Made by a program: the position numbers and the translations under genes | Notes under the pieces: generated by a model | Seen by the model: only the letters and a program-made list of their open reading frames with translations | Databases searched by the model: none | What the model was told of the DNA's origin: nothing | Shown: positions 1-49,324 of the stretch, in pieces | Layout of the letters: each line of letters begins with the position of its first letter | Numbering within the stretch: position 1 is the stretch's first letter | Assembly: GCA_025055115.1 (NCBI GenBank) | Contig: JANWYJ010000011.1 | Location: forward strand, 1-64,000 | Source: Gemmata sp. | Lineage (GTDB): Bacteria; Planctomycetota; Planctomycetia; Gemmatales; Gemmataceae | Length of the DNA stretch: 64,000 bases | Direction: 5' to 3'

Positions 1-255
1 TAGGCTATCGTTGACCGCTCGTAGCCGTGATGACCTCCTGCTTGATACCATCGACCCGCTTGGTTTACCTGACGGAAAACTGTTGCATTGACTCAATTGA
101 AGGTAGTTTCGGCCAAAAACTTCTGGAGATCAACCCAACCCAACGTATTGATTATCTTAGTTAAGCTCTCGGGAATGTGTGCGCGATGCTCACTGGCGGG
201 CTACCGTTGACGCCGACACTCGCAGGTCCTGCTCAAAGGCAGGGACACGTTCGGG

Positions 256-297
256 AGTGCTTGCAGCTTGAACAATAGTGCTTGCAGCTTGAACAAT
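256..297. repeat. 21-bp perfect tandem duplication
   Basis: The 21-bp unit beginning AGTGCTTGCAGC is present at 256-276 and again, without change, at 277-297. The second copy forms the left arm of the inverted repeat that follows. Confidence 0.85.
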
Positions 298-321
298 AAA
301 ATATGCTGTTCAAGCTGCAAG
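281..321. repeat. Perfect 15-bp inverted repeat (hairpin)
   Basis: Positions 281-295 (CTTGCAGCTTGAACA) are the exact reverse complement of 307-321, with an 11-nt AT-rich loop. There is no T-tract on either side, so it is not a typical intrinsic terminator. The upstream tandem copy (260-274) could pair with the same right arm as an alternative. Confidence 0.8.
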
Positions 322-690
322 ATTGCCTCAGCTATCACATCGGGTATGAGCAAAGGACAATAGTGACTTGGTGAATCCTGACGGATGAAACCCGCGATCG
401 AAGACGGTCAAACTTACCTCGAGACGGTTTGAAAACCCAACAAAAGCCGAACGATACGTCGTAATCGGCAACTATCCCGGTGTTTGCCAACGTCCTCTAG
501 CCATTCAGTTAGAACGATTCTTTGAACGTCCTGGAACGTTCTCCCCCAACGGAAGACGACGGACCACATCCCGCTGTTGGGACTTTCTCGTAAGGTGGCC
601 TGTTCCGTGGTTGATTTTCAGTGGTTGATTCGACCTATCTTTCAGTTGAATACGAGTTTATATTTTCTCAGACCAAGTCGAAACAGCACG

Positions 691-787
691 TTGGCCAGCA
701 TGCTGTCATCAGCAAAGCAAGCCTTCCCTGACCCGGCTACACCGCCGTAAGGGAGGGCCTCGGCCAGCATGCTGTCATCAACAGAGC
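691..787. repeat. Direct-repeat pair, offset 69 bp
   Basis: 691-718 matches 760-787 at 25 of 28 positions, with a perfect 19-bp core (693-711 and 762-780, GGCCAGCATGCTGTCATCA). About 41 bp of unrelated DNA lies between the copies. It belongs to the set of pairs with roughly 72-bp offset found across the window. Confidence 0.8.
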
Positions 788-838
788 GGGTTGGCCGTAG
801 TATAAATGTCCCAATGCCTCGACGCAGGAAAGGAATTT

Positions 839-1363
839 ATGGGAGACTTTTGGCACGATTTTTGGGTGCGTTTTGGTGTCACCATCCTCATCACACCGAT
901 CGCGGTGAGCTTTTGGAAAGCCTGTGAAGCAGCCTGGCACCGCTGGTACAACTATCGCTTGCGCAAGATCGCCGCTCGTCATGCATTGGCGCATGGCATC
1001 AAGCAGGTGGTGCTAACGATTTCGATTGGTGACGACATCGAAGAATCGGTACGCAATTTTTTGCAAGAACGGCGCTGGCTGGGTGGTGGGACAGACATTC
1101 CGATACTGAAAGTCCATCAACCTGAAGCATTGAGTGATTCGGACGGACACTGGTATTATTTTTTGGACAAGGTGAAAGACGAGATCCGCAAAATTCGCAG
1201 TGAGGGATTCACGCGTGTACATGTTTTCGCCCGCGTACCTGTGCCGATGGCAATCCTGGTGGGGGCCACCCTGACCAACGGACCAGCCGCGTTTTTGTAT
1301 CACTTTAACGCCGGTCGGTACTTGCCTGTCGGACAAATCACGTTTGAAACCGTCAAACTCTAA
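839..1363 (+). CDS. Small membrane protein with SAVED/CARF-like C-terminal sensor half
   Basis: A 174-residue protein. The ATG at 839 is preferred over the ATG at 806 because AGGAAAGGA lies five bases upstream of it. Residues about 8-27 form one hydrophobic membrane helix, followed by a basic stretch (about 38-47) that would sit in the cytoplasm. The soluble part (about 52-174) has an alternating beta/alpha pattern. Its end, around VHVFARVPVPMAILVGATL and then LYHF..GRYLP, resembles the C-terminal half of SAVED domains, which bind cyclic oligonucleotides. A full SAVED has two CARF-like halves; only one fits here, so the protein would need to oligomerise. The layout (one helix plus sensor) recalls the CRISPR membrane protein Cam1. 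It is first in an operon with a Cas6-like and a Card1/Can2-like gene. Membrane effector activity is inference; the SAVED match is by eye. Confidence 0.6.
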   Translation: MGDFWHDFWVRFGVTILITPIAVSFWKACEAAWHRWYNYRLRKIAARHALAHGIKQVVLTISIGDDIEESVRNFLQERRWLGGGTDIPILKVHQPEALSDSDGHWYYFLDKVKDEIRKIRSEGFTRVHVFARVPVPMAILVGATLTNGPAAFLYHFNAGRYLPVGQITFETVKL

Positions 1364-1385
1364 CAACCCCGTCCAGGAACTCCCC

Positions 1386-2396
1386 ATGGCTCAGACTCTC
1401 CGCCTGAAGATTCTCGAAACGCAACGCACATTGGTTATCGCCCGAGGTGGCCGATTGCAACCGTGGCTGGGTCCGGCGTTACGGGGATTGGCCGGAGGTC
1501 GTCTGAAAGCGCAAGTGTGCCGCCAACCGGTGCGACTGCAACTGACGCAATGGCGTTACTGCCATGGTTGCCCCCTGCGCCGCGGTTGCGCCTACGGCGA
1601 AACCATCGAAGGGGGTGACGCCGCGAAAGCCGATCCAGCGCGGCCGATTGTCATCGCCCCTCTGTACCCTTGTCCAGAATTTGGACAGCTGGGGGATCGT
1701 ATCCCGGTCACGGTGCGTTTCATCGGTCCGATGGCGGCGGCCCACGCGGACGTGTTCTGGGAAGCAGTACGGCGCGGCGGAGCCGATCCGGGCTTGGGCT
1801 TGGGCGAAGACCACGTCTTATTCGACGTATTGCCGGGCGAACACGCTGACCGGTGGCAAGTCGTGGAGCTACCCGACCCCGACACACAAACCGGCTGGCT
1901 GCCCGCTGTGCGCGTGGTGCTGACCAGCCCGTTGATCCTGCACAGCCGCAAGAACGGCCCACGGCATCTGATTCATCAACCCACCTTAACGGATTTACTG
2001 CAGCGTTGGGAGAACCTGGTTGGCCTGTTCGAACCAACCTCGGTCTGGCTCGCTCATCAGCGCATCGCCCGCCTGCTTCAACTTGCGGCCATCACGGAAA
2101 TCCTGGATGCCGCATTAGAACCCGTGGGGCAAGTGCGTCGGTCGCAACGATCGGGGGAGCGTTGGCACGAAGAGGGCATCTTCGGGTGGCTGAAGCTAGG
2201 GCCGATAGCCTGCGGTGTTTTACCCTGGCTCGAAGCCGCGGGGCAACTCCATATCGGCACGCACCGTAGCGGCGGAGCCGGCGGCTGGCGTGTAGTCGCG
2301 GAAACCGGCAACGCCCCACGCCAGCGCCAGTTTCAACGCCGGCTCGCACAGCCTTCAACCAACATCCTCGTATCACAACCCCTTCCGTCGGAGTAA
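1386..2396 (+). CDS. cas6: CRISPR-associated endoribonuclease Cas6 family protein (RAMP)
   Basis: A 336-residue protein, started at the ATG at 1386, which has AGGA 8-11 bases upstream; an upstream TTG at 1344 would overlap the previous gene. Family marks of the PF10040-type Cas6 are visible: an early LRGLAGGRLK segment (about 32-41), cysteines at about 45, 59, 62 and 68 with the spacing CxxCxxxxxC and a following AYGE, then a P-rich strand entering VTVRFIGPM, a GLGLG turn (about 136-140), and a C-terminal GQLHIGTHRSGGAGG segment (about 286-300) in place of the usual glycine-rich loop. Cas6 cuts precursor CRISPR RNA inside the repeat. A catalytic histidine cannot be assigned by eye. It begins 22 bp after the membrane protein and ends 4 bp before the nuclease gene. 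No repeat array that it could process is in the window. Confidence 0.75.
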   Translation: MAQTLRLKILETQRTLVIARGGRLQPWLGPALRGLAGGRLKAQVCRQPVRLQLTQWRYCHGCPLRRGCAYGETIEGGDAAKADPARPIVIAPLYPCPEFGQLGDRIPVTVRFIGPMAAAHADVFWEAVRRGGADPGLGLGEDHVLFDVLPGEHADRWQVVELPDPDTQTGWLPAVRVVLTSPLILHSRKNGPRHLIHQPTLTDLLQRWENLVGLFEPTSVWLAHQRIARLLQLAAITEILDAALEPVGQVRRSQRSGERWHEEGIFGWLKLGPIACGVLPWLEAAGQLHIGTHRSGGAGGWRVVAETGNAPRQRQFQRRLAQPSTNILVSQPLPSE

Positions 2397-2400
2397 CATC

Positions 2401-3717
2401 ATGCAGTTGTTTGTTCTCGTCTCCACGGGTCAACGAATAGCTAATATCCCACCGGTGTTGGAATATGCCCGTGTTGGCGACCATGTGGTCTGGATTGAAA
2501 GCCAGGAAGCGGCGCGCAATCATTGGACCGAAGCCCCCCAGCGGTTGCTGGAAAACCGAGGATTGCTCACCGTAGCCACGATTCGCGTGCGCCACGTCAA
2601 CGATCCGGTGGATTTGAGTAACCAACTCACACCATTTGCACAATCGGTCCAGGGGCAGTACGAAGCCACCTACTTAGTCGCCAACGGCGGGACGAAACTC
2701 TCACCCATTGGGTTGTTTTTCGGCTTGGAGTCTCTCAACCCGCAGATTCTCTATGGCGATGAACGACCGGCGGTTCACAATCTGTATCCCGCCGGGCTGA
2801 ATGAATCCCCACGAGTCGCCCCCTACACGCGGCACACCCTCGATTTGCCCGAAATTCTTCAGCTCAACGGTTATCAATTCTTAGCCCAGCGCCATCCGTT
2901 GCAAATCTGGCCTCAACCGCTTCCGGCGGAATACGACTCCGAGCGTTACGGACAGGACGAAGAATACACCTATCAGTTGCATCGGGACCATGCCCGTTGG
3001 GCCGCGGCCCGCCGCAGCCAAGAGTTCGTGCCGTTTGGAGAGCTATTTGGACTGGTTGACACAAACGTGATCCAGCGCTGGTATAACACGTTTCAACTGG
3101 CCCGACGTTGTCCCAATCCCCAAAACCTCACATCGTTATACCACGGCACGATCAACCTGGCCGAACAGGGTCGCGTAGCGGCTGGTCGGCGGCAACTGCC
3201 CCCTCCCCAAAGCGATCTTGGCCGTTCTTTCGAGTGGGCCGTGGTCCGACGGGTCCGGGAATGGCTGGATCGTGTACAACATCCCGCGGTGCAATCGGCC
3301 TGGTCGAATGTCATAGTGGCCCGAGAAGGCTTACCCGATCGGTGTGATGCCGAGTTTGATGTCCTTGTGGTCCTCAAAAATGGCATCCTCGTGGCCTTCG
3401 AGTGCAAAGCCGCTCAGGTGGACGATCGGGATTTGGAAGTTAACTTTCACCGTCTGCGTCAGGCGACCTCCCGGTTAGCGCATACCGCAATCGTTATACC
3501 TATTTATACCCGAGCATCGCATGAGCCGTGGTTCCTCCAGCAACACCAAACCCGCGAAGCCATCACAACGCGATTTGGTCCAAGCGGTCTTGTCGCATTC
3601 ACCTGGCCCGGGCAGCCCACCCAATACACCTTGCCGAACAACCCATCCCACGAGACTTTCGAGTGCCCAGATTTTGAATCGAGTCTTGAGACTCTTTTGA
3701 GTGGCTACCGTCCCTGA
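2401..3717 (+). CDS. CARF-domain nuclease, Card1/Can2-like (DUF1887)
   Basis: A 438-residue protein with two parts. The N-terminal third is a CARF-type Rossmann domain, with the diagnostic NGGTKLSPIG segment at about 95-104, where these proteins contact cyclic tetra- or hexa-adenylate made by Cas10. The C-terminal part (about 270-405) is a restriction-endonuclease fold: GRSFEWAVVRRV at about 274-285, then AEFDVLVVLKNG and AFECKAA, giving D320, E334 and K336 as the likely D-ExK metal site. Card1 and Can2 cut single-stranded DNA/RNA or nick DNA once the second messenger binds. The gene lies 4 bp after cas6 and is last in the operon. Family placement rests on motif order and length, which agree well; substrate is unknown. 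Confidence 0.8.
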   Translation: MQLFVLVSTGQRIANIPPVLEYARVGDHVVWIESQEAARNHWTEAPQRLLENRGLLTVATIRVRHVNDPVDLSNQLTPFAQSVQGQYEATYLVANGGTKLSPIGLFFGLESLNPQILYGDERPAVHNLYPAGLNESPRVAPYTRHTLDLPEILQLNGYQFLAQRHPLQIWPQPLPAEYDSERYGQDEEYTYQLHRDHARWAAARRSQEFVPFGELFGLVDTNVIQRWYNTFQLARRCPNPQNLTSLYHGTINLAEQGRVAAGRRQLPPPQSDLGRSFEWAVVRRVREWLDRVQHPAVQSAWSNVIVAREGLPDRCDAEFDVLVVLKNGILVAFECKAAQVDDRDLEVNFHRLRQATSRLAHTAIVIPIYTRASHEPWFLQQHQTREAITTRFGPSGLVAFTWPGQPTQYTLPNNPSHETFECPDFESSLETLLSGYRP

Positions 3718-3894: not shown

Positions 3895-4509
3895 TCAGGA
3901 GCGCAAGTCCTGAACAAATTTTAGGTTCAGTAATGCCTCCCGACTGCGTACACGTATTTGCGTGATGGTGTTGGCCTTCACCCGCAAGGCTCGCGCCAGG
4001 TAGACGGTGCGCTCCCGATCAGACCAGCTCAGAAAATGAGCCACAGGGAACGGCTCCAAGGGGGCCACGGCCGCCAAAGTTTGCGTTTGATCCTCAGGCG
4101 GTAATTTGTCCCACAAACCATACCAGCCCAAAACGACAAAGCGTTGCCGCGGACTCCAAGCCCGAACGCTGGTCAAATCTTCATGACCAAAACGGCTTTT
4201 GAAATCGAGCTTCACCTCAAGCCACCCAAGGTCGCTGGCCACGGGGGGATAGACCGGGTCCGAGTGATCCTCCGGTGTGATTGGCCGTACTCGTCGCCAA
4301 CTCTGGCGGATATCGGCAATGTAATGGCGCATGACGCGATAAGCCCAGGCACGGAACGAATAACCGCGCTGAGCGTCAAACAACCCTCGCCATTGTTGAA
4401 CCAGAACGTGTTGGATCGCCTCCTCCGCCAAGGGTTGGTTTCCGTTCGTCAATTTCAAAGCCAAAGCAAAAAGTTGGCCTCTGTCGCAATACTCGATGCA
4501 ATCATTCAT
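3895..4509 (-). CDS. ECF-like sigma-70 family RNA polymerase sigma factor
   Basis: A 204-residue protein, started at ATG 4509 (GGGGAA upstream) rather than a TTG eight codons earlier. Residues about 10-75 resemble sigma region 2: LALKLTNGNQPLAEEAIQHV, then WRGLFDAQRGYSFRAWAYRVM and an arginine-rich end, as in core-binding helices of ECF factors. The last 50 residues (LSWSDRERTVYLARALRVK and following) fit region 4, the -35 reader. The linker is longer than usual. No anti-sigma gene is adjacent; it converges with the CARF nuclease gene. It probably directs RNA polymerase to a small regulon that cannot be identified here. Confidence 0.65.
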   Translation of the reverse strand: MNDCIEYCDRGQLFALALKLTNGNQPLAEEAIQHVLVQQWRGLFDAQRGYSFRAWAYRVMRHYIADIRQSWRRVRPITPEDHSDPVYPPVASDLGWLEVKLDFKSRFGHEDLTSVRAWSPRQRFVVLGWYGLWDKLPPEDQTQTLAAVAPLEPFPVAHFLSWSDRERTVYLARALRVKANTITQIRVRSREALLNLKFVQDLRS

Positions 4510-4835
4510 AGGCGATTCCCCAAACTGGGCCAAAGGACACGAAAATTCTTCCGCGTCGCAAAAGCTGGGGGATCGCTCTTGGCGGGGTCATCGCCCGCAT
4601 GTTGTTGACATCATACGCTGGATCAAGCGGCGAGGGGATGTCCGAAAGAATTTTGGTCGTCAGGGAGCTTTCGGACCGGAATAAGTAAGTTTGTGACTGA
4701 CCACCGCACATACCGAAAATGTTCTGCTGGAGAGTTTTTGCCCAAATCTTTACCGTTGCGCTTGGCGTACTATGTGTCGAACAACCATACCGCAAAGCGA
4801 TGATACTTACCAGTACCTTCCAACGATAAAGGAAC

Positions 4836-4944
4836 CAATCACTCGGCCGAATCTTCGTGAACGGTCTCCGCGACGGGTCAGGCGGAGGCATGCCACCACC
4901 AGCCATACAATCACTCGGCCGAATCTTCGTGAACGGTCTCCGCG
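4836..4944. repeat. Perfect 37-bp direct repeat around a 35-bp unique segment
   Basis: 4836-4872 and 4908-4944 are identical over exactly 37 bp; bases on both outer sides differ. The 35 bp between them (4873-4907) occur once. Repeat and spacer lengths match one unit of a typical CRISPR array, but only two copies exist and the repeat is not clearly palindromic, so it is recorded as a repeat, not a CRISPR array. Confidence 0.9.
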
Positions 4945-5027: not shown

Positions 5028-5102
5028 CGTTGGCCAACACTGGAGGGTAGTTCGTCGTCGGAACCCGTCGGCCAACAGTGGAGGGTAGAATGTGGTCGGA
5101 AC
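5028..5102. repeat. 37-bp near-tandem imperfect duplication
   Basis: 5028-5064 and 5066-5102 (CGT.GGCCAACA.TGGAGGG..) match at 31 of 37 positions with one base between them. The right copy runs into the next repeat pair at 5092. Confidence 0.75.
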
Positions 5103-5197
5103 TTCGGAACCTCCCTGCTCAGCCGCTTTGACGACTCGAAGCGGCCTTCCGGAAAGGCTGTCGTGATCGGAAACTCGGAACCTCCCTGCTTGGCGGC
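5092..5197. repeat. 35-bp direct-repeat pair, offset 71 bp
   Basis: 5092-5126 matches 5163-5197 at 29 of 35 positions, with a 16-bp perfect core (TCGGAACCTCCCTGCT). 36 bp of unrelated sequence lies between the copies. Confidence 0.75.
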
Positions 5198-5330: not shown

Positions 5331-5440
5331 GTCGGCATCGCTACTTCCTTTCACCGTGGTGCTTGGCCGCCACCACGAGAGGTTTTCACAGCGAAAAGGA
5401 AGCAGTGGGCATCGCTATTCCCTTTCACCTTGGTGCTTGG
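5331..5440. repeat. 36-bp direct-repeat pair, offset 74 bp
   Basis: 5331-5366 matches 5405-5440 at 32 of 36 positions, around 38 bp of unique DNA. Weaker copies of its GCTACTTCC core (5485) and of a flanking GTTGAAG segment (5301, 5446, 5519) continue at about 72-bp steps to the end of the WD40 gene. Confidence 0.75.
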
Positions 5441-5504: not shown

Positions 5505-8462
5505 TCATGGGAGGGGTAGTTGAAGGATCGCCGCCAAAGCGGGGGTTTTATTGCGTGGCACGCTGGCCGTTCCGATCACAACCCGATTGTTATCCAGTAT
5601 TTCCAACGCATGAACGGGTCCGAAGGGGTGTTCGACCCCATAGAGACGTTTCCCTTGGACTGAGTCCCAAACCGCGATCGAGCCGCGGCCTTTCGGAGCC
5701 GCGCCGGCCGAGAGGAGTCGGCCCTGAGCGTCGAAACGAACCGCGTGAACCCATCCCGGATGCGACGGGGCCGGTTCCTCGGGAAACACTGGCTTCAACT
5801 CAGGACTGGGGAACTCGCGCACCACCTGGCCCGCGGCGACATTCCACAGCTTGACCGTGCCATCGCTCGAGGCACTGGCCAGAAATTGACCATCTTTCGA
5901 TAAGGCGATGCTGAAGACTTGATCGCGATGACCCTGCGGTCCTAGACCTTTGGGGGTGGATGGCTCGTTGGTCTTCTCATTTTTCCGGGGTTCCACTTTC
6001 TTCGCTGTCGCCGGGGGGAATTCGCGGACTAAGTTCCCGCTGGCCACATCCCACAACTTAATACTTTTATCGTAACTGGCGGAGAAGAGCTGCTTGGCGT
6101 CGCGGCTCCAACACACAGCGTAGATGGGATGGGCGATGGTTTGCGGCATCGTGACGATATGGGCATCGATTTGTTTCAAGATGTTGTCTTTCGTCACATC
6201 GTAGATGCGCACGCGGCCATCGTGGCACCCAGTCGCCAGGCGATGGCCCGTGTCGTCGAAGGCGACACAAGCGACCAAGTTGGGGTGATCGTAGCGCTTG
6301 ATGGGGTTGGTTGAAGCGATGCGAAAGAGCCGGGCTAGCTTATCGGCAGCAACCGTGCAGAATTGACCGCTGGCGTTGAAAACCAGGCCACGCACGGCCA
6401 CCGGATGCCCAAACGACTGCAGAACCTGGCCGAATTCGGGGGGAAGTGGCTGGTTCGCCGGCCCAGCAACATTCCAGGCCACCGCGGAGTGGGTTGGATC
6501 CTTCAACAAGCCGACCAACACGGGGTTCGTCGGATGAAAGGCCAACTCCACAACCGGTGAACCGGCCGCAATGCGACCGATGAACCCACCATCGGCCATT
6601 GTAAACAAATGTACAAAGCCCTCAGCATCCCCCACGGCCAACCGCTGACCATCTTTGGAAACAGCCACTGCCGTGGTTGTGGCCGTGATCTCAAAAGAGC
6701 GTTCCTTCTGGCCCGTATTACTACTCCAACTGGTAGCCGTGCGGCTGTCGCCAATGGTGATCAAACGCTCGCCGCCGGGTGATACCACCAGCCGAGCCTT
6801 TTTTGGGGTCGTCACCAGCACCCGTGTGCAGGTGATGGGAGAAAGAGCCACGCGGCGATTGGTCATTGCGGTGATCGCCAGAGGAGCTGTAGGATGCAAA
6901 GCCGCTGCCCGAATCCCACCGACATGGGGAAACGCTTGCAGAGCCTGGCCGCTCGCCACATCGACCAGAAGAGCGGAAGAATTCGCTCGTCCCACAAGTA
7001 ATCGCGAACCATCGCCGTTGAAACTCAAAGTCGTAACTTCCGCCGTTTGCGGTAAAGTCCCAACCGGTTGTTTCTCCCCCAACTTCCAGATCAGGACGTT
7101 CTTACCGACTCCCACAGCGAACTGCTTACTGTCGTGTGCGAGGGCCACGGCTCGGGGTGCCGCATCCAACGGTCCCCAGTCGCGCCGCGGCTGATCCGTC
7201 TTTTTCAGGTCCCACAAGCGGATATGGCGATCGTCGCCGGCAGTGAGTAATTCCCCTGTGGTCGCACTGATTTGCACATCCACGACTGCTCCCGTATGAG
7301 CCGAAAATTCAGCCATCACGGAATTGCCATCGCCCGTGGCCGCCCCTGCCTTCTCAGTGGGTTTCTCAGAGGCGAGTGGCCGTTTCCAAACCTTGATCTT
7401 GCCATCGGCTGCCGCGGTGATGAGCAGCGGCTGCGTGGGATGGTACAGGACAGCGGAGATCGGTTTTTCGTGGGCCGCTATGTTCGTCACGAGTTTCCCG
7501 TCACGATTCCACACGAGCAGACGCCCGTTGGCACATCCCGCGACGATTTGCTGACCGTCTGGCGCCAGCGCCAAACAGGTCACCGGCTCTTTGGCTCCAC
7601 GGAACGTCGCGACCACTTGGTTGTTGTTCGTGTTTCCCCAAGTCACAGCACCGTCAGAACTTGCGTACAGTACTGCTGTACCGTCGGGTGTGAGGGTGAG
7701 TGCCGTAAGGTCCTCGTTCAGTTCAGGAAATTCCCGCGATAGCGGCGGGGGGGCTTGCCAGAAGCGAATGACACCGTCAGGATCCGTGGTGAACACCGCT
7801 TGGCCATCCGGACGAATGGCGAAGCCCGTGATCTTCGTATCCTGATGATACTGAGCCAGCCGTTTGGTATCGTTGGCGGCAAAGAAGCCCAGGCTGTTGT
7901 CGGCATAAGCAGCGACCCACGTGGTGCTACCGCCGAGCTGGCCCAGACCAACGATGGCGGTTTTTGGTCCTGAGAGTGTTATCACTCCCTTCTCTTCACC
8001 GAGGGGGAAGAGCCGCATTTGCCCTTGGTCGTCACCGATAGCGAGTGTTTTCCCATCGGCCCCGATGGCGACCGCGGTTCCGGGGTTGTTCAAGGGGAAG
8101 CTTTTCGCGGCGGTTGGCACGGGAACTTCCCAAATGAACGCGCGGTTATCCGCCCCACTGCTGGCCAAGCGGTCTCCCGCGGCCGAAAACGCCACGCCAA
8201 GCACTTGTCCTTTGTGCCCTTGTTCGCCGGCATACGTTCTGATCAAACGGCCTGTGGCTGTTTCCCAGAGTTTGACGGTTTGATCGAAACTGGCGGTCGC
8301 GATGAATCGCCCATCGGGACTGACGGCGACCGCTTCCACCGTATCGGTGTGACCTTTCAATTCGGTCACGACCACCGGAGCTGGGTTCTCGGCAGCCAGC
8401 AGGACTACGGCCCAACTGGTCAGTAGGAAACTGAGGAGCTTAGGTAGATGCGTGGACCGCAT
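5505..8462 (-). CDS. Secreted WD40-repeat beta-propeller protein
   Basis: About 985 residues from the ATG at 8462, chosen because it gives a clean signal peptide (MRSTHLPKLLSFLLTSWAVV then LLAAENPAP); an ATG 28 codons upstream would spoil it. The rest is almost entirely WD40 repeats, at least a dozen, with typical GHTDTVEAVAVSPDGRFIAT, then FDQTVKLWE style units, enough for two seven-bladed propellers. The last repeats carry KGLGPQGHRDQVFSIALSKD. Such planctomycete proteins are exported and presumably act as interaction scaffolds; no catalytic domain is visible. It begins 70 bp after dnaB on the same strand. Partner and function are unknown. Confidence 0.85.
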   Translation of the reverse strand: MRSTHLPKLLSFLLTSWAVVLLAAENPAPVVVTELKGHTDTVEAVAVSPDGRFIATASFDQTVKLWETATGRLIRTYAGEQGHKGQVLGVAFSAAGDRLASSGADNRAFIWEVPVPTAAKSFPLNNPGTAVAIGADGKTLAIGDDQGQMRLFPLGEEKGVITLSGPKTAIVGLGQLGGSTTWVAAYADNSLGFFAANDTKRLAQYHQDTKITGFAIRPDGQAVFTTDPDGVIRFWQAPPPLSREFPELNEDLTALTLTPDGTAVLYASSDGAVTWGNTNNNQVVATFRGAKEPVTCLALAPDGQQIVAGCANGRLLVWNRDGKLVTNIAAHEKPISAVLYHPTQPLLITAAADGKIKVWKRPLASEKPTEKAGAATGDGNSVMAEFSAHTGAVVDVQISATTGELLTAGDDRHIRLWDLKKTDQPRRDWGPLDAAPRAVALAHDSKQFAVGVGKNVLIWKLGEKQPVGTLPQTAEVTTLSFNGDGSRLLVGRANSSALLVDVASGQALQAFPHVGGIRAAALHPTAPLAITAMTNRRVALSPITCTRVLVTTPKKARLVVSPGGERLITIGDSRTATSWSSNTGQKERSFEITATTTAVAVSKDGQRLAVGDAEGFVHLFTMADGGFIGRIAAGSPVVELAFHPTNPVLVGLLKDPTHSAVAWNVAGPANQPLPPEFGQVLQSFGHPVAVRGLVFNASGQFCTVAADKLARLFRIASTNPIKRYDHPNLVACVAFDDTGHRLATGCHDGRVRIYDVTKDNILKQIDAHIVTMPQTIAHPIYAVCWSRDAKQLFSASYDKSIKLWDVASGNLVREFPPATAKKVEPRKNEKTNEPSTPKGLGPQGHRDQVFSIALSKDGQFLASASSDGTVKLWNVAAGQVVREFPSPELKPVFPEEPAPSHPGWVHAVRFDAQGRLLSAGAAPKGRGSIAVWDSVQGKRLYGVEHPFGPVHALEILDNNRVVIGTASVPRNKTPALAAILQLPLP

Positions 8463-8532
8463 GGAGGGTTTCCGCGGGGTGGGTGGCTGAATCGGCGTGA
8501 TCGAGGATAGCAGTAGTTTACTCGATCGCGTA

Positions 8533-9912
8533 TCAAACTCCACCACCCATACCGATATCGGCGATGTAATTTTCGTAGCGGTTGTATTCCTTCAACCAGG
8601 TGAGGGTGATTTCACCCGTTGGACCGTTGCGCTGTTTCGCGATGATGACCTCGAGAATGTTATCCTCCTGGGCACCATCAAATTTGCCCGGGCGGTGCAA
8701 CATCAGGACGGTATCAGCATCCTGTTCAATCGAACCCGATTCGCGCAAGTCCGACAGCCGCGGTTTATGGTCTTGCCGCTCCTCGGAAGCCCGGTTCACT
8801 TGCGCTAGGGCGATGACCGGGATACCCAATTCGCGGGCCAGGAACTTCAAACGGCGGCTGATTTGAGCGACTTGCTCTTGGCGGGGATCGCGGCGGTTTT
8901 CCGGCTCAATCAGCTGCAGATAGTCGATCACAATGAGCTTCAGACCACCGTCTTTTTCATGTTTTTTGTCTAACCGTCGGGCACTGGCCGCAATTTGAAT
9001 CATAGTGCGGCTGGGGGTGTCGTCGATGTAGAGTTTGGCCCGGCGGAGAACATCACCCGCATCCATCAGTTTCTGAATATCATCGGCACTCAAATGACCT
9101 TTGCGAACCTTGTGACTATCGACCCGCGATTGGCAACAGAGCAAGCGTTCGGCCAATTCAATCCGCGCCATTTCCAGGCTGAAGAACAAAATCACCGGGG
9201 AATGACCGCTGGCTAATCCATCGGTGATGATGTTGCGGACGATATTGAGAGCGAAAGCTGTTTTCCCCACACTGGGCCGGGCCGCGATGATGATGAGTTC
9301 CGAATTTTGCAAGCCCGCGGTGATATTATCGAGATCGACATACCCAGTGCTGATGCCACTGATGGACAGGTTTTCCTTACCCACCCGGGCATCGATGCGT
9401 TGGTAGGCTTCAGTGATAATCTCGGTCAGTGGTTTCGTGTCACCGACAATACCGGCTTTGGCGATGTCCATAATCCGCCGTTCGGCTTGGGCAACCAACT
9501 CATCGGCGGATTGTGTGCGATCGTAGGCATCGCGAAGGATTTCGTTACTCGCATGAATCAGTCCGCGGATCATCGCGGCTTCGCGCACCAGTTGGGCGTG
9601 ATACTCGGCATTGGCTCCGGTGGGTACCGATTCCCACAAATCGACGAGATACTCTTTGCCGCCGACATCTTCGAGCTGCTTATTTTTGCGTAATTTGTCG
9701 AAGAGCAGGACGAGATCGACCGGTTGCCCCTCATTCGCCAGGTCGCACAGCGCTTGGTAGATTTTCCGGTGCGCATCGAAGTAAAAATTGTCGGCGACAA
9801 TCACTTGCTGAACAATGGGCAGAGTGTCGGGGTCGCGCAAAATCCCACCCAAGACACCGCGTTCGGCATCACGGTTTTGCGGGGGAAGCCGCTCAGTCAG
9901 AGGATCTGCCAT
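8533..9912 (-). CDS. dnaB: Replicative DNA helicase DnaB
   Basis: A 459-residue protein of normal length for the family. The N-terminal helical domain opens with PPQNRDAERGVLGGILRDP, the usual DnaB start that contacts primase. The RecA-like C-terminal domain has Walker A ARPSVGKTAF (about 211-220), FFSLEMA, the Walker B strand LIVIDYLQLI and the SDLRESGSIEQDADTV motif with the arginine finger region. It unwinds DNA at the replication fork as a hexamer on the lagging strand template. The WD40 gene follows downstream on the same strand; no replication origin or other replication gene is adjacent. Confidence 0.97.
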   Translation of the reverse strand: MADPLTERLPPQNRDAERGVLGGILRDPDTLPIVQQVIVADNFYFDAHRKIYQALCDLANEGQPVDLVLLFDKLRKNKQLEDVGGKEYLVDLWESVPTGANAEYHAQLVREAAMIRGLIHASNEILRDAYDRTQSADELVAQAERRIMDIAKAGIVGDTKPLTEIITEAYQRIDARVGKENLSISGISTGYVDLDNITAGLQNSELIIIAARPSVGKTAFALNIVRNIITDGLASGHSPVILFFSLEMARIELAERLLCCQSRVDSHKVRKGHLSADDIQKLMDAGDVLRRAKLYIDDTPSRTMIQIAASARRLDKKHEKDGGLKLIVIDYLQLIEPENRRDPRQEQVAQISRRLKFLARELGIPVIALAQVNRASEERQDHKPRLSDLRESGSIEQDADTVLMLHRPGKFDGAQEDNILEVIIAKQRNGPTGEITLTWLKEYNRYENYIADIGMGGGV

Positions 9913-10122: not shown

Positions 10123-11919
10123 ATGTTGCCACGTTGGTTGCCGGTTATCGGTTTTACCCTGTTTCTGTCATCAACGACCGATGCCGCCGTTGTCGTCATT
10201 GCCAATTACACGGCCGATCCCATCCGCTTTAGCTTGGCTGAACCCGAGGCTCAACCACGCCGGCATTTTCTGGGGGCCAATGAGGTGCTGCCGTTTTTTG
10301 TTCGCGGTCCGGCCGACATCGAATGCCACCTCCACGGTCGCGATATCCGCCACCGCCTGGATGTTTACAGCGCATACATGTTCCTGCCCCAACCCAACGG
10401 CACGGTGGAATTCCACGGCATCGAACTGCCCGGCCAGCCGCTCGAACGGGACCAACGCCCCGAGCCGAACCCCCTGCCCCGCCATCCGGTCGTCAAAATC
10501 CCTGTCCTCATGGCGGTTGATGATGCCGATCCGCGAACCGAACAATTGTGGCAGAAAGAACTCCGCAGTCGCTTCGACCAAGCGGCAGCAGCGATCGAAC
10601 GCTGTAGTGGTATCCGCTTGGAACTGATCGACCTGCAAACGTGGCGTTCTGACCCCGAGGCCCAAACCTGTACCGACTTGCTGAGAAGTTTAGAACGTAC
10701 CCTACCAGCGAAAGCCGGGATGCTGGTTGTAGGTTACTCCAGTCGCCAGTTGAAGCCGCCACAGGAGTCCGCTTTCGGCGCGGTTCGGGGGGTTGGTGCG
10801 CGGCATATTCTTCTGCGTGAGGGTTGGCCGGCGAAAGAACCCCAGCGCGTCGAGGTGTTTGTTCACTTCTTAGCCCGGGCGTTGGGAGCTGTGGAATCGC
10901 CCGATCCCGGGTCCGCAATGCGCTCCAAACTCGATGATGAATACATCTTGCACGCCAAAAGTGTTTTGCGGCTCGACCCCTTGAATGCCCTGGCCCTCAA
11001 TATCTGGGCGGAAGAGCGCCGTCATCAACCGGAGGTGGAGTTGGCCACCCTTTCGCCCCTCAATCGTCATCGGCTCAGCCGTGTCTATCGGGCGTTGGCT
11101 GCAGCAGCCCCGATGGATGCCTTCGTGCGCACGTACGTGGCCTCTTTGGAGGGCGAGATGGCCAAGAAAGAAGACTTCACGAAAGATGCGGCCGCGCCGC
11201 TGCAAGCCCCCGAGCGGGCGTTGGCCCAACGGGATGCTCTGGCCCGGCAAATCCTTCGTGCCATCGTGCACGAAGCCCAGGATAACGCCCAGCGCGGCCC
11301 AGCAGCCCTCCGTGGTGATTCCCTGACGGCCCGCTACGTCCATGTGGCCGCACGTGAAGCGCTGAACAACGTCGGTCCGGAGATGGTTTCGGCCTTCCTC
11401 ATCGCTTTGGGTATCGCCTTGGATGACACCGATACGCTCCTCCAGCATCCTGACACTGCCTCTTCGATTCGCAACATCGAAACGGAGGAGGAGCGGCAGC
11501 GACGCCAGCGCGTTCTGGGTCTTCCGACATTGGCGGGTCGCCGCGATCTGTGCCGCCGATTTTTTCTAGGCTGTGCCACCGGAGAACTCCTCGGACCCAC
11601 CAAGGCTGAAGAAGCCGCACAGCAACGCCTGCAGACCGATCTGGAAACTCGGGCCGGTTTTAGCTTTCCCGCACTGGCCGCCGAGTTAACAGGTATTCGC
11701 TTCGCCCAATCCGCTTTCTTCGACCCCGACATCATCCGCGATGTTGTGAATCGCTTCTCCGCGGACGATTATCTGCCGCCTCTCCACGGATTGCGTAACG
11801 GGTTATCGCGCACGAAATTCATCCTCCATTACGGCGAACCCGATGATCCACGCTTTCACCAATGTGTAGCGGATATCAAAAAGCGTATTCATTCACTCAC
11901 CCCTTATCGCAACCCATAA
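10123..11919 (+). CDS. Secreted planctomycete protein of unknown function
   Basis: A 598-residue protein with a signal peptide (MLPRWLPVIGFTLFLSSTTDA, cleavage likely near residue 21). GAGG lies upstream of the ATG. The mature start (VVVIANYTADPIRFSLAEPE) looks like a small beta domain; the middle section around VLMAVDDADPRTEQLWQKEL resembles the beginning of a zinc-independent protease-like or reprolysin-like fold seen in planctomycetes, but no HExxH motif is present. The C-terminal half is helical. I do not recognise the family. The following secreted protein at 12096 is on the same strand 176 bp away. Confidence 0.7.
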   Translation: MLPRWLPVIGFTLFLSSTTDAAVVVIANYTADPIRFSLAEPEAQPRRHFLGANEVLPFFVRGPADIECHLHGRDIRHRLDVYSAYMFLPQPNGTVEFHGIELPGQPLERDQRPEPNPLPRHPVVKIPVLMAVDDADPRTEQLWQKELRSRFDQAAAAIERCSGIRLELIDLQTWRSDPEAQTCTDLLRSLERTLPAKAGMLVVGYSSRQLKPPQESAFGAVRGVGARHILLREGWPAKEPQRVEVFVHFLARALGAVESPDPGSAMRSKLDDEYILHAKSVLRLDPLNALALNIWAEERRHQPEVELATLSPLNRHRLSRVYRALAAAAPMDAFVRTYVASLEGEMAKKEDFTKDAAAPLQAPERALAQRDALARQILRAIVHEAQDNAQRGPAALRGDSLTARYVHVAAREALNNVGPEMVSAFLIALGIALDDTDTLLQHPDTASSIRNIETEEERQRRQRVLGLPTLAGRRDLCRRFFLGCATGELLGPTKAEEAAQQRLQTDLETRAGFSFPALAAELTGIRFAQSAFFDPDIIRDVVNRFSADDYLPPLHGLRNGLSRTKFILHYGEPDDPRFHQCVADIKKRIHSLTPYRNP

Positions 11920-14431: not shown

Positions 14432-14941
14432 TCACTCGTTATCATTCTACACACACACACCGGAAGTGGAAAGAGCAAATCTTCATTTCATCTGTCGGAT
14501 CATGGCTTTTGTGACACCACCGAGGGGGGCGAAGGGTGGCAGTCGATGGACCTCATCCGATACTCTTGAAGCGCAAACGCCACCAGCCCTGTCCAGGGTG
14601 CGAATAACCCCCAGACGACAGACGGCATCCCGTCCGCCGGACAAATCACAGTTTTTATGACACGGGAAGCAGTTCGTCCTCCCCCAGAAGACGCATCACG
14701 AGAAACCACCACTGGTGGCGCAGCAGGCTTCTCGAGTGACAGGTGGACAACAACATGATTCCTACTCAAAGGAGTTCGACCTGAGTGAGGCGCAGCAAGC
14801 TTCTCGAAAGACAAGTGGACAACGAAGAAGCCGAACGGCTTGTCCGGTCGACGGGTTGGTGGGCTGTGGGTGTGTTGCAAGAAGAAGTCAACAGCGTCTG
14901 GCCAACGCCAAAGGCACACCACCAATCGGCTCGTGATGGAG
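14432..14941. other. Non-coding region between tRNA and anti-sigma gene
   Basis: No gene is seen on either strand. It should contain the tRNA promoter (minus strand, upstream of 14431), and it carries the direct-repeat pair at 14715-14823. Confidence 0.55.
14715..14823. repeat. 37-bp direct-repeat pair around 35 bp of unique DNA
   Basis: 14715-14751 and 14787-14823 match at 32 of 37 positions (core GGCGCAGCA.GCTTCTCGA). The 35 bp between them are single-copy. Size and offset (72 bp) equal those of the perfect pair at 4836, but the sequences are unrelated. Confidence 0.8.
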
Positions 14942-48913: not shown

Positions 48914-49324
48914 TTAGCGTCGTCCTTTCTTGGGGGGTGTGGGTTCGTCGTCTTCTTCCTCGTCTTCGTCATCCTCGTCGTCGTCTTCATCCTCGTCCTC
49001 ATCGTCCTCGTCGTCGTAATCGTCTAATTCATCTTCTTCATCATCAAAGTCTTCATCGTCCTCGAAATCGTCATCGTCAAAGTCTTCATCGTCCTCGAAA
49101 TCGTCATCGTCAAAGTCTTCATCGTCCTCGAAATCGTCGTCATCGAGGTCTTCATCAAAATCGTCGTCGTCGTCCTCGAAATCGTCGTCGTCGTCCTCGT
49201 CGTCGTAATCGTCGTCATCGTCGTCAGCAGATGCCACGAGGGTGGGCGTCCATTCGTGGGGCCAAGGTCGCAGTTCCTCAAATGGTTCCAAGCCGCTGAT
49301 GGTGAGCAGGGCGTGCGAGGGCAT
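48914..49324 (-). CDS. Extremely acidic low-complexity protein
   Basis: 136 residues from ATG 49324 (GAGG ten bases upstream). The first 30 residues are ordinary (MPSHALLTISGLEPFEELRP), then nearly every residue is aspartate or glutamate, with phenylalanine at intervals, ending in a basic PTPPKKGRR tail. Within it an 11-residue unit (FEDDEDFDDDD) is repeated three times from three 33-bp DNA copies at 49046-49144. Such proteins may bind calcium, basic proteins or DNA-binding surfaces; none is proven. No signal peptide is visible. Real gene status rests on the start site, open frame and protein-like N-terminus. Confidence 0.6.
   Translation of the reverse strand: MPSHALLTISGLEPFEELRPWPHEWTPTLVASADDDDDDYDDEDDDDDFEDDDDDFDEDLDDDDFEDDEDFDDDDFEDDEDFDDDDFEDDEDFDDEEDELDDYDDEDDEDEDEDDDEDDEDEEEDDEPTPPKKGRR
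49046..49144. repeat. Three tandem 33-bp coding repeats
   Basis: Copies at 49046-49078, 49079-49111 and 49112-49144 (the first two identical, the third near-identical) encode the acidic 11-residue unit of the gene at 48914. Confidence 0.85.

Follow-up and report, generated by a model that had tools for sequence, protein, structure and literature searches.

A perfect 37-35-37 repeat-spacer-repeat unit in a Gemmata genome as a probable product of off-target spacer integration

We analysed a repeat-spacer-repeat unit at positions 4836-4944 of a 64,000-nucleotide stretch of DNA from Gemmata sp. (assembly GCA_025055115.1, contig JANWYJ010000011.1; hereafter the window). Very probably, this unit is a spacer integrated off-target by the organism's own enzyme for CRISPR (clustered regularly interspaced short palindromic repeats) adaptation, most likely the Cas1-Cas2 pair encoded on contig C95. 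Dozens of similar scars in the sampled sixth of the genome suggest that the memory-writer of this organism is naturally sloppy.

The unit consists of two 37-bp copies, at 4836-4872 and 4908-4944, that are identical at 37/37 positions and enclose 35 bases (4873-4907). We read the copies as a target-site duplication and the 35-bp insert as a captured spacer. The bases adjoining the two copies differ on both the left and the right, in agreement with the original prediction, made from the letters of this DNA, of a perfect unit with sharp edges. The same prediction raised the idea of a full array with this 37-bp sequence elsewhere in the genome, and this was not borne out: the 109-bp stretch 4836-4944 has a single match in the organism's own 4.93-Mb, 100-contig genome, and the 37-mer is unlike both native CRISPR repeats found, which sit elsewhere. 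Together these two results speak against a bona fide array, which would have three or more repeats; the unit has two copies only. The insert likewise occurs once in the genome at up to three mismatches.

The unit belongs to a large class. We surveyed 800,216 bases of the genome (16%, mostly contig starts) for two-copy units with a distance of 66-80, a length of 28-45 and a gap of 28-44, allowing mismatches. This sample contains 59 units, with one true array (L019:9524) and three tandem triplicates (L069:473, L069:8223 and L080:11947) left out. Their repeats are exactly 37 long in 16 units and 36-38 in 31; the gap is 34-39 in 42, and the start-to-start distance 70-76 in 56. Copies are identical in 14 units and different in the other 45, down to about 80% identity. 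In the 22 recent units, whose copies agree at 97% of positions or more, the most frequent length is 37 (9/22). The sequences themselves are unrelated: an all-against-all comparison of 62 units gave no match between repeats at E 0.01, and only partial matches of 11-14 bases between inserts. Two locally shuffled versions of the sample together yielded two direct repeats, neither at a distance of 66-80, so the unit at 4836-4944 is not a product of chance. The same geometry stood out as a sharp peak when 451,332 bases of the genome were surveyed for exact direct repeats, with 40 pairs at start-to-start distances of 70-79; a matching survey of 419,901 bases from another member of the genus, G017, found 14 such pairs, 10 of them from one true CRISPR array. 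A rough extrapolation, from a sample whose contig starts may be repeat-rich, puts the genome-wide total at about 360 units.

Many sampled contigs carry units, and three of the 59 lie within 300 bases of a sampled contig start. Local clusters are also present, with seven units within 10.8 kb on L041 (contig C18) and seven within 20 kb on L084 (contig C41). By a simple open reading frame (ORF) mask, 85% of the sampled sequence is coding; units lie on average 26% inside the mask, and 31/59 are entirely outside it. This avoidance fits a picture in which insertions survive mainly at harmless sites.

The edges of the class carry a preference of their own. In 41 clean units (length 35-39, tandem triplicates dropped), CC stands just outside the repeat at 23/82 ends, compared with 10.0% at other offsets (standard deviation 3.5%, maximum 18.5%). 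On the inner side, the repeat begins with G or C at 66/82 ends, in a genome with a G+C content of 59%. An earlier count that included the triplicates (43 clean units) found CC at either end in 19 units versus 7.3 expected, a value reached in 0/2000 random draws. Neither bias appears in 141 plain tandem duplications from the same sample, where CC stands at 26/282 ends. For comparison, the leader-repeat junction of the native array on contig C95 reads GGCC|GTCTC. Class edges share with this junction the CC and a broad preference for G/C, but no strict CC|G.

Inserts are foreign to their sites. Across the 59 units their G+C content is 0.542, below that of the 40-bp flanks (0.611; Wilcoxon p 6e-5) and of the repeats (0.607; p 2.5e-4). 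One insert can be traced: the 36-bp insert of the unit at L078:14621, beside a P-II gene, agrees over its full length, at 33/36 positions, with L080:17279-17314, part of an ATP synthase delta subunit gene on another contig. The repeat copies of this unit are 36/39 identical, and insert and repeats have therefore diverged equally far. The remaining 58 inserts lie about as far from the sampled sequence of this genome as shuffled inserts do; the next-best has 10 mismatches in 41 (0.24), and the best shuffled insert 0.27. Were the host chromosome the source of every insert, a 16% sample should contain about nine matches, by an arithmetic that ignores drift. Since one was traced, most inserts probably come from elsewhere than the host chromosome. 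Exact 21-mers from three other inserts had no match in viral contigs, and neither did 21-mers from a true native spacer used as a yardstick; the viral-contig negatives therefore say little.

Which enzyme could have made these units? The end of contig C95 carries genes for Cas2 and then Cas1, together with an array whose repeat is 37 nt long and whose period is 73, with a single complete spacer, of 36 nt. At up to three mismatches, the C95 repeat occurs nowhere in the genome outside its own array. C95 Cas1 keeps the E, H and D positions in an alignment with solved Cas1 proteins (7cr6), residues that we take to be catalytic, and judged by their sequences the Cas1 and Cas2 proteins of the genome look intact. 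Five other genomes from this family and order have best matches to C95 Cas1 at 47-53% identity. Within the genus, 16 other members gave no match to it at E 1e-40, in a comparison that did not score every first-look candidate in each genome, whereas 11/18 other members have a Cas1 in a long frame like that of the Cas4g-Cas1g fusion described below; we count this contrast in favor of integration by the C95 enzyme. Among three C95-like loci with flanks (L152, L153 and L154), an array adjoins Cas1 in two (G263 and G197), where the repeats measure about 38 and 37 nt, respectively; the G197 repeat and the C95 repeat share the end GGCCATTGAAAC. The duplicated target at 4836-4944 has the length of the C95 repeat, 37, and the insert is 35 long against 36 for the complete C95 spacer. 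Because 37 is also the commonest length among the recent units, the C95 enzyme is favored.

We propose the following route to the unit at 4836-4944. Cas1-Cas2 loaded with a trimmed DNA fragment of about 35 bp would attack both strands, 37 bases apart, at an ordinary intergenic and loosely leader-like site, using the same spacing that it uses on the native 37-nt repeat. Repair of the resulting gaps would leave the fragment with a copy of the 37-bp site at either end, as repeat-spacer-repeat. Lacking a leader, this locus would not be extended into an array, and the two copies would then diverge.

Relatives show far fewer units. Across 819,901 bases of G017 we found 5 units that do not belong to an array, a rate that differs from that of the present genome with p 3e-13. 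Three of them are probable units (L147:462, 37-38-37; L147:16151, 40-35-40; L063:7333, 36-36-36), and because even G017 has a few, low-level unit making may predate this species. Five further genomes sampled at 80 kb each (G002, G008, G019, G025 and G026) have zero units, as do G040 and G041 (38,002 bases together). Two look-alikes in 361,543 bases of G001, G004, G011 and G014, both in G014, were set aside as lying inside long frames of repetitive proteins. The syntenic region of G017 holds no trace of the unit at 4836-4944, in an alignment that is poor there with a diverged relative; copies around other inserts, which the original prediction named as a sign against itself, were not seen. A scan of genome contigs returned six loci (in Pseudanabaena, Phormidium, Crocosphaera and Endozoicomonas) at 22-27% identity, none of them a close strain. 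At four other units G017 gives a hint of the older state. Homology to G017 starts at or within copy 2 at L084:16117 and L084:19195, and at L032:14625 and L075:11734 one copy runs into, or directly adjoins, the 3' end of a gene common to G017; at all four, one copy looks like the older site.

Several observations weigh against off-target integration, or against its assignment to the C95 enzyme. The flanks of the unit at 4836-4944 end in AAC and AGC, with one C per edge and no CC. Its insert has no meaningful match to phages (best E 0.1) or plasmids (best E 0.9), a search of the kind that the original prediction had proposed; its central 24 bases have no exact match in viral contigs, and its own genome holds no source elsewhere at up to three mismatches. 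In the class as a whole, a source was traced for only 1/59 inserts. The 18 non-clean units lack a clear CC excess (5/36 ends versus 9.0%, standard deviation 5.3%), and the first repeat base at CC ends is C in 11, G in 8 and A in 3, not mainly the native G. Class repeats agree with the native repeat at 11.6/37 positions, not significantly more than random DNA (11.1/37), and in a stem-loop test they are not more foldable. Excising one copy plus the insert fits the intergenic DNA of the diverged G017 no better than random excisions in 7/7 regions, with fractions from 0.14 to 0.71, and at L032:14625 the excision lowered the score. The sample is weighted towards contig starts, which may be richer in repeats than the rest of the genome. 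Plain tandem duplications number 146 in our sample versus 9 in a similar amount of G017, an excess that integration leaves unexplained and that shows other duplicating processes to be active. Finally, the genome holds a second adaptation module and a 36-nt-repeat array with a similar period, so the C95 enzyme is only the likelier candidate.

This second module, on contig C86 (L018:5472-7471), encodes a Cas4g-Cas1g fusion followed by Cas2, with no CRISPR array within the 15 kb examined on L018. Its array is probably the one at the end of contig C20, which has a 36-nt repeat and a period of 72-74. We make this assignment from the repeat shared with G017, whose array repeat, also 36 nt, is one base from the C20 repeat. 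The sole Cas1 match of G017 lies in a long frame like that of the fusion. At up to three mismatches, a tested 23-nt part of the C20 repeat does not occur outside the C20 array. Off-target integration by the C86 enzyme would suit the period of the C20 array and the 36-36-36 unit in G017. However, the commonest recent length is 37 and not 36, and long-frame Cas1 is common in the genus (11/18 other members), yet the sampled members have few or no units, mostly in small samples. We therefore consider the C86 enzyme an unlikely author of the unit.

A generic duplication is distinctly unlikely. Here replication slippage, template switching or end joining with filler would have copied the 37 bp, and the 35 bp between would be pre-existing or random filler; the original prediction had listed a recent local duplication among its options. 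The tandem excess does attest to strong duplicating processes, and the empty-site comparison with the diverged G017 did not favor insertion. Tandem duplications such as those at L018:10591-10648, L038:35-104 and window positions 256-297 have, however, periods mostly spread over 15-31, whereas spaced repeats of at least 30 bp peak sharply at gaps of 34-41. Because their periods are broad and their edges lack the motif, we treated the tandem duplications as a process separate from the units; a common cause may still exist. A local duplication accounts neither for the fixed geometry of 37 with gaps of 34-39, nor for the edge motif, nor for inserts that differ from their flanks in G+C content and in one case copy a distant gene.

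Remnants of ordinary arrays, or a dispersed repeat element, are very improbable. The sizes are those of a CRISPR array and type III genes lie upstream of the unit, but the repeats of the units fail to match one another, their inserts show short partial matches only, and both native repeats, as far as tested, are confined to their own arrays. We rejected a dispersed repeat element on the mutually unrelated repeats of the units. Among the options named in the original prediction, the class gives good support to a neo-array, and the minimal two-repeat array fails on a repeat unlike both native ones. An assembly artefact is scarcely credible: the assembly is in 100 contigs and three units lie close to contig starts, but the copies differ in 45/59 units, unlike a simple assembly fault, and the geometry agrees with that of a biological enzyme.

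The unit at 4836-4944 is intergenic; the genes on either side, both on the minus strand, are a sigma-70-like gene (3895-4533) and a WD40 gene (5505-8546). Two more diverged units of similar sizes share this intergenic region: one at 5092-5197 (35-36-35, copies 29/35 identical, outside the count of 59) and one at 5331-5440 (36-38-36, copies 32/36 identical), whose right edge, read on the reverse strand, is preceded by CC. Farther away are a unit at 14717-14823 (35-37-35, copies 31/35 identical) and a possible decayed unit at 693-787 (26-43-26, copies 24/26 identical, outside the count). The window contributes 3/59 counted units in its 64 kb. Direct repeats rich in TCATC and TCGTC at 49035-49206 are probably an acidic low-complexity coding stretch and not a unit of this kind. 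The original prediction placed the unit in a local set; this set is real, but it is larger than supposed and spread over many contigs, not confined to the surroundings of the CARF gene.

Three genes on the plus strand precede the unit on its 5' side, close to the start of the window, which is also the start of the contig. The first (806-1363) encodes a SAVED-domain protein, probably a type III signaling accessory, with SAVED with TM as its best PADLOC model. The second (1344-2396) encodes a Cas6-like endonuclease for CRISPR RNA processing (PADLOC Cas6, 2.1e-20; under the Pfam cut-off; no NCBIfam match). The third (2401-3717) encodes a Csx1-like CARF nuclease (PADLOC Csx1, 5.1e-11, and CARF_PDDEXK, 1.5e-5; no NCBIfam match), which confirms that the unit lies 1.1 kb after a CARF nuclease gene. 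Because units are scattered over the sampled contigs, also far from this gene, its nearness seems incidental. At the same place in G017 (L017, about 10594-11235) the CARF nuclease gene is present only in pieces, one with an internal stop, and is apparently decaying.

The Cas6-CARF group of the window is one of three known type III pieces in the genome besides the C95 locus. The others are a Csm3/Cas7-like frame on contig C80 and a group near the end of contig C49 with Cmr1-like, Cas10/Cmr2, Cmr3 and two further RAMP proteins. The SAVED-Cas6-CARF genes at 1-3717 and the Cmr genes at L020:7978-14594 may belong to a single type III-B locus that the assembly has broken in two. We regard as doubtful a scheme in which several hundred single-spacer loci, written across the chromosome by a relaxed-specificity Cas1-Cas2, are in part transcribed, processed by the Cas6-like enzyme encoded near the unit and used by the type III complex, so that they form a dispersed immune memory and not a purely accidental one.

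CRISPR adaptation is usually seen as site-specific, and to our knowledge off-target insertions are known mainly from overexpression and test-tube work. If the unit and its class are indeed off-target integrations, Cas1-Cas2 can act as a genome-wide, transposase-like mutagen. This genome would then hold a natural record of the site preference of Cas1-Cas2 in vivo, and would allow tests of how new CRISPR loci are born and of what holds the enzyme to its array in other species. Some two-repeat candidates returned by array-finding programs might have the same explanation. Off-target integration of the neo-CRISPR kind is already known from experiments; the new part is a natural genome with many units of graded divergence, which we call new because the literature matches listed in our search, whose reach excluded most subscription papers, include no report of natural genome-wide accumulation; a term search of PMC8616872 likewise gave nothing relevant.

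Overall, the unit resembles several known systems, each in a different respect. It is like the native C95 array in its sizes (37-nt repeat, 36-nt spacer, period 73), and differs from it in an unrelated repeat sequence and in having two copies only. Nivala, Shipman and Church reportedly found in 2018 that Cas1-Cas2 can insert a spacer-size fragment at a non-array site, flanked by a duplicated, repeat-length target. In vitro, according to PMC6895254, the off-target sites of Streptococcus thermophilus Cas1-Cas2 resemble the leader-repeat junction and prefer G. The clean units described here, as a class, likewise resemble the leader-repeat junction of their own genome; the S. thermophilus sites are on plasmids and are likely half-site events (PMC6895254), whereas ours are two-sided chromosomal products of a different CRISPR type. 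Minimal type V-C Cas1 also integrates off-target frequently, as stated in PMC13034035; both systems would have a loosely targeted integrase, with no Cas2 there and a Cas2 gene preceding Cas1 here. The neo-CRISPR loci of that 2018 study, formed by non-canonical spacer integration by Cas1-Cas2 and cited in PMC9456107 and PMC11788318, resemble the unit at 4836-4944 in their spacer-size insert at a non-array site. Those loci arose, as cited in PMC11788318, with overexpressed Cas1-Cas2, whereas the present genome holds dozens of natural units whose copies range from identical to about 80% identical.
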